DNA of 64,000 nt from Paenibacillus sp. SYP-B4298 (lineage in GTDB: Bacteria > Bacillota > Bacilli > Paenibacillales > Paenibacillaceae): contig NZ_CP115484.1 in assembly GCF_027627475.1 (NCBI RefSeq), forward strand, positions 3,704,001-3,768,000. The letters are read 5' to 3'. Below are positions 4,000 to 9,664 of the stretch, one piece after another. The number at the start of each line of letters is the position of its first letter. Positions within the stretch are counted from its first letter, which is position 1. The translations under genes and the position numbers were made by a program. The notes beneath the pieces are model-generated. The model saw nothing but the letters and a program-made list of their open reading frames with translations, had not been told where the DNA came from and did not search any database.

Positions 4000-6297
4000 T
4001 TACTTGGCTCCCTGCAGCAGCCCCCTGCTATATTCCGCATATTGCTGAGCCAGTAGCGTCAGCTCAAACCGCCGGTCATTGGCAGTATGTGAACGTTCCG
4101 CCAGCTCGCGTGCGAGCTGCTCATAGCGCGCATACAAGGCAAGCGCTGCAGAGGCGGCATAGCCGGACTCCTGCTGCTTCTCTTCCATGGCGAGCTGTCG
4201 AGCCAGCTTCTCCATCTCGATAACAGCCCTCGTCTGCCGTTCCTTGTTATAACGATCGCGCTGCAACGCCAGCTCCATGTAGTGCGCTGCCTGCTCCCAG
4301 GCGCCCGATTCCGCATGGCCTATCCCCAGCTCCCATAGCAGGTCGGACGATTGCGGGGAGTATCGCAGGCCATCCTCAAGCAGCTCAAGGCGGGCAGCCG
4401 GCGCAAGCAGCGGCGCGAGTGCCAGCCGACTCTGCTGCTCGTAGGGATTCAGCCTCAGGGAGCGCTCCAGCCGCTCCAGCCGCTGCGACAGCGGCAGACG
4501 GCTCGCCTCCTCATAAGCCGCCTGCGCCAGATGCAGACGGAGCGCGATCCCCGCGCCCAGGAGCAGCCCTAACGCCAGCACGGCCAGACCCGTTCGCTTA
4601 GCGAGCCGCCTCCACCTGCCAGAACGATGCACGCCAGCCTCTTCATCCACAGTAGAAGCGACACCCGGCCCGGTATCCCATGCTTCCCTTTCAGAGCGCT
4701 TGCGTTCACGGGATGGGCAGGCTGGAGGCCGGCATACCGGGTCATCCACCTCTATCGGCCTTTCCTCATCTATTAGCGTATTATTCACGCGCGATTGGAC
4801 TTGTCCACTGCCGCCTGCGGCCTCCTGCGGAAGCATATACAGGGCGAGATAAGCCAGCAGCAGCATCCAGTAGAAGCCGAAGGCATTGTCCAAATCGATC
4901 GCGCCATGCGCCAACAGCACCAGCGGCGGCAGCGTCCAGATGAAGGCGGTGCGGCGGCTCACCGCGATGAGAGTAAGGAGCAGGGCTACCGCCAGCAGCG
5001 CCAGACCAACTGCGCCAAGATCGAGCAGGATGTCCAGATAAGCGCTGTGCACTCTGCTGCCGACATAGGGCTGCTGCTGGATGCGCTCGAACTGCACACG
5101 CCAGGCGCCGCCGCCGAAGCCTAGCCACGGTGATTCGCGCCAGAGCCGCAGCGCATCCTCATAGAGCAGCCGTCGCGCGCCGGCTGTCTCATATTGGCCG
5201 CTGCCAAGACGCCCGCCCAGCGCCTGCGGCAGCAGCCAGAGCGCTGATCCGACCGCTGCGGCGAGCGCGCCCCAGCTCCAAGCGCTGCTGGCGAGCACGC
5301 GGCGGCCGCTGCGCGGCTGCTGGCGCAGCGGTTGGCGCAGTGCTAGCAGCAACGCGGCGCCACCCAGCGCCAGCGCAATGACGAGCGCGCTGACCGCAGG
5401 CGGTGCGACGTGCCCCTGCACAGCGGGGCTCTGCTGCACCAGCACGCGGCAGAGCAGCACCGCGCAGAGCAGCGAGCCCGCTGAGCAACGCAGCAAGGCA
5501 GCGCGTTCCCCTCCGCGCAGTACCAGCAGCGCGCACAGCCAGCCGAGGGCGGTGATGAGCCAGGCGCCGCGCGATTCGGTCAGCAGCAGCGCCGCCTGTG
5601 TCGGCGCTAGCAGAAGCGCCGGGAGCAGTACCTGCAGTCGCGCTGGGAGGCGTCTATTGCCATGCCATCCGCTTGGCAGCGGGCGCACAAGCTGCAGCAG
5701 ATACCAGACGAAGAAGCTGCCCAGCACAACGGCCAGCATGTTCGGGTACTGAAACAAGCCCGCCAGTCGATACCCAAGCGCAGAGATCTGTGCATTGCCA
5801 CTGCCTAGCAGTGCCTTCGGAAGGTGGAGCCACCCAAGCCAGCTCCCAAGACCCGTCCAGACGATTGCCCCTCCGGTAAGCTGAAGCGCCAGCAGCAGGC
5901 CAAGCCTGCCGCCCCTCCACGAGACCGCATAGCAGGTCAGCAGGAACCAGGCGCCGCTGCTTGCCCAGCGCAGCGCCTCCGAGATCGTATGCTGCATGGA
6001 TACCGGCTCTTGAGACAGATGCAGCAGATAGGCAATGGATAACAGAAATGGCCAGCCTGCAAGCAGCCCCTCCCATGGCGGAATACTGCGTCGCAGCCGT
6101 GAACAAGACCTTCCGCCCCATGGGCTGACACTGCCCATTGCGATGCTGAAGACGAGCAAGCACGCTGCGGATAGCTGAAGCGAGGCCGCAAACCCATAAT
6201 AATCCGCATCGAAGTATAAGCCGTCCCTCCAGGCTCCTGCCAGAAGAGCGACAAGCAGCAGCATGCCGGCAGCTTGGGAAACTCCGCTTTTAATCAT
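4000..6297 (-). CDS. O-antigen ligase / Wzy polymerase-like membrane protein with C-terminal helical repeats
   Basis: 765 residues. About a dozen hydrophobic segments fill residues 1-490. In the middle is a Wzy_C-type loop, with GARRLLYEDALRLW, a glycine-rich GFGGG and VHSAYLDILLDLG, the region where this family (WaaL, Wzy, PglL) binds lipid-linked glycans. A hydrophilic arginine-rich linker follows. After one more hydrophobic segment the C-terminus (about 590-740) holds TPR-like helices, so the family core is extended. The likely role is polymerising or ligating a surface polysaccharide at the outer face of the membrane. GGAGGAAGATAGG precedes the start. The leader carries a candidate c-di-GMP riboswitch and terminator. 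Confidence 0.83.
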   Translation of the reverse strand: MIKSGVSQAAGMLLLVALLAGAWRDGLYFDADYYGFAASLQLSAACLLVFSIAMGSVSPWGGRSCSRLRRSIPPWEGLLAGWPFLLSIAYLLHLSQEPVSMQHTISEALRWASSGAWFLLTCYAVSWRGGRLGLLLALQLTGGAIVWTGLGSWLGWLHLPKALLGSGNAQISALGYRLAGLFQYPNMLAVVLGSFFVWYLLQLVRPLPSGWHGNRRLPARLQVLLPALLLAPTQAALLLTESRGAWLITALGWLCALLVLRGGERAALLRCSAGSLLCAVLLCRVLVQQSPAVQGHVAPPAVSALVIALALGGAALLLALRQPLRQQPRSGRRVLASSAWSWGALAAAVGSALWLLPQALGGRLGSGQYETAGARRLLYEDALRLWRESPWLGFGGGAWRVQFERIQQQPYVGSRVHSAYLDILLDLGAVGLALLAVALLLTLIAVSRRTAFIWTLPPLVLLAHGAIDLDNAFGFYWMLLLAYLALYMLPQEAAGGSGQVQSRVNNTLIDEERPIEVDDPVCRPPACPSRERKRSEREAWDTGPGVASTVDEEAGVHRSGRWRRLAKRTGLAVLALGLLLGAGIALRLHLAQAAYEEASRLPLSQRLERLERSLRLNPYEQQSRLALAPLLAPAARLELLEDGLRYSPQSSDLLWELGIGHAESGAWEQAAHYMELALQRDRYNKERQTRAVIEMEKLARQLAMEEKQQESGYAASAALALYARYEQLARELAERSHTANDRRFELTLLAQQYAEYSRGLLQGAK

Positions 6298-6401
6298 CCT
6301 ATCTTCCTCCAGACCGGCAGCAAGGCAGCAAGCACATCACGCGCCAAAATAAACATATAACTGATTGTCATGCTCCGTCACAATCACTCACACCATAACG
6401 C

Positions 6402-6428
6402 AAAAAACAGCTTACCTTGCGGTAGCTG
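6402..6428 (-). terminator. Rho-independent terminator of the candidate c-di-GMP riboswitch
   Basis: On the minus strand CAGCTACC (6428-6421), loop GCAA and GGTAAGCTG (6416-6408) form a stem with one bulged A, followed by six T (6407-6402). It lies about 105 bases before the O-antigen-ligase-like start codon. Its 5' arm overlaps sequence that can instead pair with the 3' strand of the aptamer (6486-6472 with 6438-6424, one A-A mismatch, two G-U pairs). Confidence 0.7.
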
Positions 6429-6470
6429 CCTGGCCACCCGTACCAGCACGGGAATCTATGCATAATGTTA

Positions 6471-6660
6471 CGGTAGCCAGGCTGCCAATCATTCCGGCAT
6501 TGCTGCCGCAAGCGCATCGAAGCTGCTTCCACAGCGTACCTGCGCATTGAATTATAAACTACACTTACCAGCATTGTTGCCCGATATTGTGCGGCTTATA
6601 ACGAACCTTAGACCCTATAGCTTTGCGTCCTTGCCTTTAGACAAGTTTGCCTTTTTCGTA
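6471..6660 (-). promoter_or_regulatory. Candidate cyclic-di-GMP-I (GEMM-I) riboswitch with an enlarged P3
   Basis: Read on the minus strand, the 5' half has the GEMM-I landmarks in order. GGCAAAC (6651-6645) is followed by a six-base-pair hairpin with loop UAAA, then GGACGCAAAGC (6630-6620) and GGUCUAAGG (6613-6606 and neighbouring bases). The 3' half, GGCAGCCUGGCUACCG (6486-6471), closely resembles the family's conserved 3' strand. The two halves are 119 bases apart instead of a few tens. The insert holds small hairpins, for example CGGCA-GCAA-TGCCG. It lies between the HD-GYP stop and the O-antigen-ligase-like gene, both on this strand. A terminator follows, so transcription control is likely. 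No strong promoter was found between the HD-GYP stop and the aptamer. Confidence 0.75.
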
Positions 6661-6693
6661 TAATTCATTACCGACCCTTGTCGGCTGCACGTA

Positions 6694-7776
6694 CTAGAGA
6701 ACCTTGGAGATCATCAGATGGAGACTGTCCTTCAGATCAATCTCATACGGCTCCTTCACCTTCGTCCCATCCGCCTCCTGAATAATGCGCACCGTCGGGC
6801 GATGGACAGCCAATGAATCATTTGCACTGACGACTCCGATCTGACCCGAATTAAGCTGTATGGTCGTTGCAATCGGATAAATCGAGATATGCTTGCAAAA
6901 CAGGCGAATCAGGTTGACGTCAAAGTATGAATTACCTGCAGCGAATAAATATTCGATCGCCTCGGACGGCGTATAGCGCGGGCGATGTGGACGCGGCGAT
7001 GTCAGCGCGTCATACACATCTGCAATGGCGACAATCTGGGCATACTCATGAATCTCGTCCTTCTTCAAGCCTCGCGGATAGCCTGTCCCGTCATAGCGCT
7101 CATGATGCTGTAGCGCGCAGTGTGCCGACAGCAGCGATAGATCATACTGGTGGCGAAGCAGATTAAAGCCCTCGACTGTGTGCTTTTGCACGACCTGCAT
7201 TTCCTCTTTCGTGAGCGCTGCCTTCTTCTTCAGCAGCTCCTGAGGCACCTGGGTCATGCCCACATCGAACAACAACGCCCCGATGCCCAGATCCTCAAGC
7301 TGATTGCGGTTATAGCCTTTGGCGAGTCCGATAATACCCGCCAGTACAGCAACATTAACAGAATGCTGAAACAGGTACGCATCACTGGTATGAATCGATT
7401 CCAGATTGACCAGTACCTCTCGACGCCCCATAAGATCCTGCAGGATTTGCCCGAACACATTGCGAAAGGTGCGTCCAAGCTCTGGAGCCACAGCTCTTCC
7501 CTTGGTCGCCGGGTTATCCATAATGGAATTCATCGTCTTATACACAGAATCCACTGCATTTTTGCGCGTCTCCTCGCGAATAACCTCCTCCGGCATAATG
7601 TCATCCGTTACATGATCCTCAATGAATACATAATCGACCCCCATATCACGAAGTCGATCGATAAAGCGATCATTTAATTCCACCCCCAAACCTAGCAGAA
7701 CGTGTCCGTTCTCCCGCAGAACTGGTTTGGCCAGCCGTTCTCCCGACCGGACTGACCCGATATTCACTCTTCTCAT
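6694..7776 (-). CDS. HD-GYP domain protein with a degenerate HD motif
   Basis: 360 residues. The N-terminal third is of the kind seen in Firmicute HD-GYP proteins. The HD-GYP domain spans about 130-330, with H138, H199 and HHERYDGTGYP at 224-234 intact. The normal HDxGK motif reads FDVGM at 170-174, so the metal-ligand histidine and the lysine are both replaced. Canonical members hydrolyse c-di-GMP; this one may be weakly active, altered, or a binding-only protein. AAAGGG lies upstream of the ATG. It is 208 bases downstream of the GGDEF gene and upstream of the riboswitch, all on one strand. Confidence 0.85.
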   Translation of the reverse strand: MRRVNIGSVRSGERLAKPVLRENGHVLLGLGVELNDRFIDRLRDMGVDYVFIEDHVTDDIMPEEVIREETRKNAVDSVYKTMNSIMDNPATKGRAVAPELGRTFRNVFGQILQDLMGRREVLVNLESIHTSDAYLFQHSVNVAVLAGIIGLAKGYNRNQLEDLGIGALLFDVGMTQVPQELLKKKAALTKEEMQVVQKHTVEGFNLLRHQYDLSLLSAHCALQHHERYDGTGYPRGLKKDEIHEYAQIVAIADVYDALTSPRPHRPRYTPSEAIEYLFAAGNSYFDVNLIRLFCKHISIYPIATTIQLNSGQIGVVSANDSLAVHRPTVRIIQEADGTKVKEPYEIDLKDSLHLMISKVL

Positions 7777-7984: not shown

Positions 7985-9664
7985 TCATGCTTTTCTGTAC
8001 ATGGAGACGATCCGATTTCGTCCACCGTTCTTTGCTTCATATAAGGCCGCATCAGCTTCAGAGAACAGCTCCCGCAGATACGCCTTCGGATTATCAACAG
8101 AGATGCGTCCTCCCTTGTCGATAGCCAGCATGCCAAGACTGATCGTCACTCCGATCGGTTGATTGCCTTGTCCAGGTTGAATAATATTGAATTCCACGGC
8201 CTCCTTCACGCGCTGTGCAAGCAGCATCGCCTGCTCTTGATTGGTATGGGGCAGATAAACAGAGAATTCTTCCCCGCCATAGCGGGCTAAAATATCCGTC
8301 CGGCGCAGCGCCTTTTTGACAACCGCAGCCGTGCTGGACAATACCTCATCGCCGATAATATGCCCGAATCGGTCATTGACATTTTTGAACAGGTCGATAT
8401 CAAACAGAAAGATCGCAAATGGAATCTGGTATCTCATGTTCGTCATCACTTCATGCTCCAGTTGCTGCATCAGATAGCGTCGGTTATAGCAGCCGGTCAA
8501 GCTATCTGTTACCGCCATTTGCTCCAGCATTTGGTTCGTTTTATATAGCTCGTCCTGCATTAATATCAACGCCCGGTTGCGCTCCAGCAGCACCTCATTC
8601 TGGCGTTGTGTAACGTCTACCTGACGACGAAGCTCCGTAATATCCTGAAAGGTAATAATCCGGCCGAGCAACAGCGTGTTCGAATCGAATATCGGCGCTG
8701 TATAAATGGACATATGCGTATCATTGCCCAGCGTAATCTCGACCTGCGCTCCCTCCGGGCTGCGCTGCTCGTACTTTGACAGAAATACGTCCATATTCCC
8801 GACAATATGCAAGGGCGCCAAGAAGCGGGACATATCCAAAATATCGCCTGGTCGCAGATTGAACAACGGCCTGAGCACCGAGTTGATGTCTACTACAATT
8901 CCATGCTCATCCAGCACGATGATTCCTGTGCTCATGCTGTCAAACACATCTTTCTGATCCAACTGTACTACGTGGAACACCTTGTAGCCCTGGATAGCAA
9001 TGAGAAAGTATAGCCCGCAGAGAACGATTCCCCATGAAGTCAGGCCGTTAACCTGAGTGAACTTCTCCTCCATGAGCACATTGACTACAATATCGGCACA
9101 AGCGAACACACATATGATCATCATGCCGACAGCGGCCATCCCGAACTGCAGCCGTTGCCTTGCCGTCTTCGCTGTGCGGGAAGAGATATACAAGTGATAG
9201 AGCGATACCATCACATACAGCAGCAATGAAAACATAGTGAACCAGAAGAGCGGCCCATACTGCCGCTGCCTGAATGCTCCATCAATCGCTTGAACAAACC
9301 AGCCACCCGGATTGAATAGCACCCCCGCCGCCGATAGCATACCGGGCACACTGAACCAGAAGAGTGTTTTTCTCGTCACCAGATAGGACTGCCCGCTTAA
9401 ATAAAATACAAAAATCAGCCACCCCAGTCCAAGCAGGGACAGGCCGACAAAAGAAATCTTCAAATAAACGAGCTGCATCATAGGATTTTCCGTTGTCGAA
9501 ACTGCGAATTGGCTGATTGGCCACAGCATCATAAGGAAATGGAATACCAGGTAGACCTTATGTAAAACTGTGATGGTATTTAGCAGAAATATGATGGCAA
9601 ACATTACAAACAGAATGACAAAAAAGAGTAACTCCGACCATACTTCGAGTCCCACACGTTTCAC
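7985..9664 (-). CDS. Membrane-bound diguanylate cyclase (7TM-PAS-GGDEF)
   Basis: 559 residues. Residues 1-235 hold about seven hydrophobic segments, like the N-terminal 7TM sensor region of some histidine kinases. A PAS-like domain follows (about 240-360: GIIVLDEHGIVVDINSVL), then a short coiled coil and a GGDEF domain (about 385-559). The active site is GGEEF near 463-467, and an RxxD product-inhibition site (RRTD) lies five residues before it. An active, feedback-inhibited enzyme making c-di-GMP from two GTP at the membrane is therefore expected. The GTG start at 9664 has only a weak ribosome binding site. The first downstream gene is the HD-GYP protein. Confidence 0.9.
   Translation of the reverse strand: MKRVGLEVWSELLFFVILFVMFAIIFLLNTITVLHKVYLVFHFLMMLWPISQFAVSTTENPMMQLVYLKISFVGLSLLGLGWLIFVFYLSGQSYLVTRKTLFWFSVPGMLSAAGVLFNPGGWFVQAIDGAFRQRQYGPLFWFTMFSLLLYVMVSLYHLYISSRTAKTARQRLQFGMAAVGMMIICVFACADIVVNVLMEEKFTQVNGLTSWGIVLCGLYFLIAIQGYKVFHVVQLDQKDVFDSMSTGIIVLDEHGIVVDINSVLRPLFNLRPGDILDMSRFLAPLHIVGNMDVFLSKYEQRSPEGAQVEITLGNDTHMSIYTAPIFDSNTLLLGRIITFQDITELRRQVDVTQRQNEVLLERNRALILMQDELYKTNQMLEQMAVTDSLTGCYNRRYLMQQLEHEVMTNMRYQIPFAIFLFDIDLFKNVNDRFGHIIGDEVLSSTAAVVKKALRRTDILARYGGEEFSVYLPHTNQEQAMLLAQRVKEAVEFNIIQPGQGNQPIGVTISLGMLAIDKGGRISVDNPKAYLRELFSEADAALYEAKNGGRNRIVSMYRKA

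Follow-up and report, generated by a model that had tools for sequence, protein, structure and literature searches.

A c-di-GMP-I riboswitch candidate with a predicted four-way junction in its P3 arm precedes a Wzy_C gene in Paenibacillus sp. SYP-B4298

Organization of the locus

The window, i.e. the whole stretch of 64,000 nucleotides that was analyzed, comes from a soil bacterium related to Paenibacillus pinihumi. On its minus strand, genes encoding a 7TM-PAS-GGDEF protein and an HD-GYP-type protein are followed by an aptamer, an intrinsic terminator, and a gene described as Wzy-like in a first-pass annotation, a description borne out by the Wzy_C domain of its product (Table 1). The stop codon of the HD-GYP gene and the start of the aptamer lie 32 nt apart, and 104 nt separate the end of the terminator from the Wzy_C gene. 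As no promoter-like site was found on the minus strand between 6250 and 7000 by a consensus scan for one promoter type, transcription may start from the upstream genes.

Table 1. Features of the riboswitch locus, with positions in the window.
Feature	Position	Strand	Evidence
Upstream gene (context), 559 aa, 7TM-PAS-GGDEF	7985..9664	-	ORF, Pfam
Upstream gene, 360 aa, HD-GYP type, degenerate HD motif (FD..GM)	6694..7776	-	ORF, Pfam, alignment
c-di-GMP-I (RF01051) aptamer, expanded P3	6469..6661	-	cmscan, 55.3 bits, whole model
P2 hairpin, 6 bp, UAAA loop in place of GAAA	6630..6645	-	sequence, Rfam alignment, folding
P3 insert, predicted four-way junction with one unpaired base	6491..6607	-	folding, shuffles, two-row alignment
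P3 insert, predicted stem	6606-6603/6494-6491	-	folding
P3 insert, predicted hairpin A	6602-6551	-	folding
P3 insert, predicted hairpin B	6549-6509	-	folding
P3 insert, predicted hairpin C	6508-6495	-	folding
Antiterminator strand, able to pair with the aptamer 3′ strand and sharing bases with the terminator 5′ arm	6424..6438	-	folding, shuffles
Intrinsic terminator, stem-loop and six U	6402..6428	-	sequence; fold constrained to P2 and P3
Downstream gene, 765 aa, Wzy_C (PF04932, 41.2 bits, cut-off 31.7)	4000..6297	-	ORF, Pfam

The HD-GYP-type protein (6694-7776) keeps the motif HHERYDGTGYP. In all six HD-GYP orthologues of the genus FD..GM replaces HD..GK, which is present in two paralogues. 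Because of this replacement, the protein probably lacks phosphodiesterase activity, and it could be a c-di-GMP protein with no catalytic role.

Twenty loci were scanned: 19 surround Wzy_C homologues, and the twentieth, L025, overlaps L059. Aptamer matches were detected in 10 of them, corresponding to nine places (that of the window included), and the remaining 10 had no match within the scanned stretch. At six places in other genera, the riboswitch-to-Wzy_C layout recurs with an open frame of 237-279 codons in between (L033, L036, L040, L041, L043, and L044); this frame is missing at the window locus. A PilZ domain was found in both intervening frames tested with Pfam (two of the six places). 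A tblastn search with proteins from four relatives detected no PilZ remnant next to the riboswitch, either in the window or at five genus loci (best E 0.37). For one element, located in front of the Wzy_C homologue of L044 (3930-4031, minus strand), the best family is the sister class c-di-GMP-I-GGC (RF03167, 60.8 bits, gathering score 59). At another locus (L080, 4251-5222, genome G002), open frames lie between the riboswitch and the Wzy_C gene, one of which resembles a transposon OrfB/TnpB protein (by eye).

Identity of the aptamer

The RF01051 (c-di-GMP-I) aptamer was the only Rfam match above threshold across the 64-kb window (cmscan; 55.3 bits, gathering score 35, E 4.4e-8, model positions 1-87). 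The first-pass annotation had taken two conserved GEMM-I halves on the minus strand to be one aptamer, and a single RF01051 alignment indeed joins them, rather than leaving them to separate elements. Along the strand the order is GGCAAAC, the P2 hairpin, GGACGCAAAGC, GGUCUAAGG, 119 bases, and GGCAGCCUGGCUACCG, so that GGCAAAC, the 6-bp hairpin, and both conserved stretches lie where they had been annotated. The alignment contains the consensus stretches GGCAAAC, ACGCAAAGC, and ACCG. P2 and P3 are both able to form, with no mismatch in six P2 and 10 P3 pairs. Folded alone, the aptamer reaches -59.7 kcal/mol with its helices held versus -61.3 kcal/mol when free, and its free fold is unremarkable (z -1.42; 17 of 200 shuffles equally good).

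Relative to the Vc2 sequence, the positions of G20, A47, and C92 (Vc2 numbers) in the window aptamer are tentative. These bases are named as ligand contacts (PMC11218506). The type I contact, in which a GNRA loop of P2 docks into a receptor in P3, was not found in the window aptamer: the P2 loop is UAAA, and the receptor strand deviates from the consensus (by eye). Such a contact is not required for RF01051, because type II members are reported to have no receptor (PMC11218506). Computation supports class membership; by its fit to the covariance model the element is a c-di-GMP-I riboswitch, and we infer c-di-GMP as its ligand.

An HD-GYP orthologue was found in six of seven genomes of the genus, the window's included (71-100% identity), and in all six an RF01051 aptamer follows on the same strand. 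Besides the window, these orthologous loci belong to P. pinihumi DSM 23905 (G003) and to genomes G002, G004, G005, and G006.

Antiterminator and terminator

A pairing of the aptamer 3′ strand with 6438-6424 had been proposed at first pass, together with a terminator overlapping the pairing strand. Both were recovered. The duplex extends over 15 positions with one mismatch (-28.5 kcal/mol), and the terminator (6428-6402, minus strand) reads CAGCUACC GCAA GGUAAGCUG, then six U. It was not listed by a simple consensus scan, because its stem has a bulge. When P2 and P3 were enforced in the full-length fold of the window element, the terminator was present (-83.8 kcal/mol); in the unconstrained fold, the aptamer 3′ strand paired with 6438-6424 (-94.2 kcal/mol). 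The free fold lies 10.4 kcal/mol below the aptamer-held fold, a difference that ligand or kinetics must cover.

The same two states were obtained for all six orthologues (by eye for five): the terminator forms with P2 and P3 held, and the aptamer 3′ strand pairs downstream in the free fold. By folding, aptamer strand and terminator arm compete for the partner strand in each of the six. The free fold takes the 3′ arm of the terminator in G005 and the 5′ side in the other orthologues. Shuffled downstream stretches paired as well with the aptamer 3′ strand as the native one in 4 of 1000 cases for the window, 5 for P. pinihumi, 36 for G004, 56 for G006, 0 for G002, and 2 for G005; i.e. the antiterminator duplex is strong in four orthologues and weak in two (G004 and G006).

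Folding supports two mutually exclusive pairings, and these predict an OFF switch; the folding logic agrees with this reading, already suggested by the first-pass annotation, both here and in the five orthologues. Caution comes from Bc1 of B. thuringiensis, which is reported to have terminators, yet no c-di-GMP response in vivo (PMC11218506). By analogy, Bc1 counts against taking the predicted c-di-GMP OFF switching in the window for granted.

A long insert in P3 with a common predicted fold

The P3 insert had been singled out as the unusual part of the element, and this impression was strengthened by the comparison with other aptamers. In the window, the gap between CUAA and GGCAGCC is 121 nt. 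The corresponding gap in the orthologues (CUA(A/C) to GRCAGCC) is 126 nt in P. pinihumi, 36 nt in G004, 24 nt in G006, 23 nt in G005, and 19 nt in G002. In agreement with the expectation that the two halves normally lie a few tens of bases apart, 27 of the 29 RF01051 matches in the seven genus genomes span 79-108 nt, and the other two are the window locus and its P. pinihumi orthologue. The genome of the window contains four RF01051 matches, and the other three span 85-87 nt; long forms appear shortened in this genome-wide search (the window locus as 75 nt, 44.8 bits). Across the family, RF01051 is present in 47 of 59 genomes, the best matches listed spanning about 78-104 nt (by eye).

When P2 and P3 were enforced, the inserts of the window and P. 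pinihumi folded into the same succession of elements: a stem (GUUC/GAAU), hairpin A, one U, hairpin B, and hairpin C. The same junction with one unpaired base appeared in both inserts even without enforcing the stem. When the stem was enforced, hairpin A comprised 52 nt in the window and 46 nt in P. pinihumi, hairpin B 41 and 51 nt, and hairpin C 14 and 15 nt, respectively, with one unpaired junction base and a mean pair probability of 0.91 in each species. Three branches were common among dinucleotide shuffles (88 of 500 for the window and 110 of 500 for P. pinihumi), but three branches with at most two unpaired junction bases were found in only 2 and 3 of 500, respectively. The native insert energy was reached by 2 of 500 shuffles for the window and 0 of 500 for P. 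pinihumi. Taken alone as a 125-nt stretch, the window insert is unremarkable (z -1.59; 16 of 200 shuffles as good); for the P. pinihumi insert alone, z was -3.47 with 1 of 200 shuffles as good, and a slightly different junction was preferred.

The predicted P3 domain is so far known from two species. A pattern with a gap of 98-128 nt occurred at one place, in P. pinihumi, in a contig collection with a stated size of 84,980 species, which may leave out the window's own genome. Within the family, the pattern with a gap of 8-38 nt was detected at 21 places in 20 of 148 genomes, and no exact pattern with a gap of 39-69 or 70-100 nt was found in 295 genomes. Exact patterns are insensitive (the short-gap pattern caught 4 of the 27 compact RF01051 matches in the genus), so that neither the single long-gap place nor the lack of gaps of 39-100 nt proves absence elsewhere. 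A covariance model built from the two long inserts (R1) retrieved its two sources and six matches taken as chance (E 0.04-0.84) from 58 genomes, and one further, unconvincing match (E 0.13) from a set of 12 loci and the window. The region 6298-7776 had no match in a plasmid collection. The open-licence literature, as far as its text was available, contained no c-di-GMP-I aptamer with such an insert, which does not prove novelty.

Loop of P2 and length of P3

Two P2 loops occur among the six orthologues: the window, P. pinihumi, and G004 have UAAA, and G002, G005, and G006 have GAAA. Gaps are 36-126 nt long with UAAA and 19-24 nt long with GAAA. The idea that P3 grew where the GAAA loop was lost was considered, and the case for it is weak. 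Counter-cases are (i) the receptor base, which by eye is also absent from G002 and G005, both with GAAA loops; (ii) the HD-GYP tree, which groups G004 with G002 and G005 (support 0.82); and (iii) locus L065 of another genus. There, reading by eye suggests a 5′ half of c-di-GMP-I type with a UAAA loop at about 1500-1580, followed by a P3 region that is short and has no recognizable receptor. The loop change therefore does not require the insert. A pattern for the UAAA-type 5′ half occurred in 5 of 394 family genomes, three of which belong to this genus; the short P3 region of L065 is from one of the other two. A UAAA loop may still dock, as a UNRN loop does in the TPP riboswitch (PMC3764141).

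Conservation and possible roles of the insert

The window and P. pinihumi were compared across the locus. Identity was 0.96 and 0.91 in the two aptamer halves, 0.76 in the terminator, 0.62 in the linker before it, and 0.48 in the stretch after it. Over all columns, insert identity was 0.64; 500 shuffled inserts averaged 0.54 and did not exceed 0.62. The whole insert is hardly better kept than the linker; its paired core is. All 24 core pairs are standard in both species, comprising 20 identical pairs, three with a one-sided change, and one with a two-sided change, and 43 of the 48 paired positions are identical as counted from the two-row alignment. Sliding the partner lowered core pairing to 26-38%. 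A shuffle control for core pairs, which with two rows only is uninformative, gave 253 of 500. Four further pairs, near the end of helix A and in an uncertain part of the alignment, have both bases changed and still pair (by reading). The loops of A and B and the ends of these arms are not conserved.

At fourfold sites of the neighboring HD-GYP gene, 64 of 155 positions (0.41) are identical, and against this background the complete retention of core pairs makes selection on the junction core likely, whereas the ends of arms A and B are likely not under such selection. A single double change between the only two long inserts does not suffice to prove the junction.

Could the insert be a neutral, tolerated expansion of the P3 loop, kept only since it folds on itself and does not harm the aptamer? 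The gap in P3 varies from 19 to 126 nt among orthologues, and both the divergent arm ends and the near-linker identity of the whole insert fit such an origin. A core retained well beyond the fourfold sites nearby and a fold that beats nearly all shuffles in both species speak against it, and we regard neutral expansion as possible but somewhat doubtful.

The P3 junction might instead provide a second input, either by binding a metabolite or protein or by docking the UAAA loop in place of the receptor contact, and in this way gate c-di-GMP binding and the switch. A self-contained conserved domain does sit in an aptamer arm, and Boolean tandem riboswitches are known (PMC5912903). But one unpaired junction base and unconserved loops of A and B leave no visible pocket and favor a scaffold. 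Nor did the insert resemble an Rfam family: insert and platform of the window gave no convincing match (RF02692 at 17.4 bits, gathering score 77), and those of P. pinihumi gave four matches of 11.0-18.2 bits, all far under the gathering scores. We consider a second input unlikely. If it were true, a two-input riboswitch would have arisen from a domain inserted into one aptamer, not from tandem aptamers.

That the insert belongs to the expression platform, by pairing with the terminator or the aptamer, is suggested by the free fold of the window, in which it pairs with the terminator 3′ arm. The duplex of insert and terminator was equaled by 41 of 1000 shuffles for the window and by 52 of 1000 for P. 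pinihumi, and pairing with the aptamer 5′ half was equaled by 24 of 500 in the window. Yet this shuffle support is marginal, the two species use different hairpins (by eye), and the insert pairs unremarkably with the P. pinihumi 5′ half (182 of 500) and with the 3′ strand of either species (395 of 500 for the window, 231 of 500 for P. pinihumi), which makes a platform role very improbable. A leader-peptide gene or a mobile repeat can practically be dismissed, since the window frame of about 60-70 codons, which has its ATG inside the insert and runs through the terminator, is not kept open in P. pinihumi, and blastn over the seven genus genomes revealed no second copy of the insert; the other matches were short and weak, the best reaching E 0.0048 (another species) and, within its own genome, 0.098.

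Proposed mechanism

We consider it probable that the element is a c-di-GMP-I OFF riboswitch acting on transcription of the Wzy_C gene, with a P3 four-way junction that is most likely structural. Without ligand, the aptamer 3′ strand would pair with 6438-6424 and occupy the first bases of the terminator 5′ arm, and transcription would continue into the Wzy_C gene. With c-di-GMP, P2 and P3 would stay closed, the terminator at 6428-6402 would form, and the Wzy_C gene would be silenced; this direction of switching in the cell is what we infer from the folds. The 4-bp stem on top of P3 is predicted to bear a 108-nt block of three hairpins, forming a tight four-way junction, and this self-folding block could keep the two distant P3 strands together. 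Most likely, the insert would serve as a structural domain at the periphery of this aptamer, whose P2 loop is UAAA, and would tune docking or the stability of P3.

Aptamers of the c-di-GMP-I class are well studied, and they were compact in nearly every case examined here. At this locus, the arm in which the receptor is usually found appears to have gained a self-folding domain, and compact orthologues occupy the same place in the genus. Long and compact orthologues may thus offer a before-and-after view of the gain of a peripheral domain, be it for tuning or for adding to sensing. The setting of GGDEF, HD-GYP, and Wzy_C genes, with PilZ also present in other genera, points to a surface polymer governed by c-di-GMP.

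Comparison with known systems

The window element shares with RF01051 (GEMM-I) the sequence core, P2, the proximal part of P3, the 3′ strand, and a score over the full model, and likewise adjoins a gene of the surface-polymer type among c-di-GMP genes. It differs from this family in its P3, with 121 nt and a predicted four-way junction instead of a few tens of nucleotides, and in its P2 loop, which is UAAA and not GNRA, with a receptor that is non-canonical (by eye). TPP riboswitches with an extended P3 arm exist; there, too, an aptamer arm is lengthened away from the binding site, although the window element belongs to another aptamer class.

Cd1 of Clostridioides difficile is described as an OFF switch, in which the ligand-held aptamer permits a terminator and an antiterminator otherwise takes the aptamer strand (PMC9262584). 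The window element is predicted to follow the same logic, but Cd1 is short-armed, and the expression platform of the window has a different sequence. Type II aptamers of the c-di-GMP-I class are reported to have a GYRA loop and no receptor (PMC11218506). Like these, the window aptamer departs from the classical clamp of tetraloop and receptor; unlike these, its loop is UAAA and its P3 carries a predicted domain.
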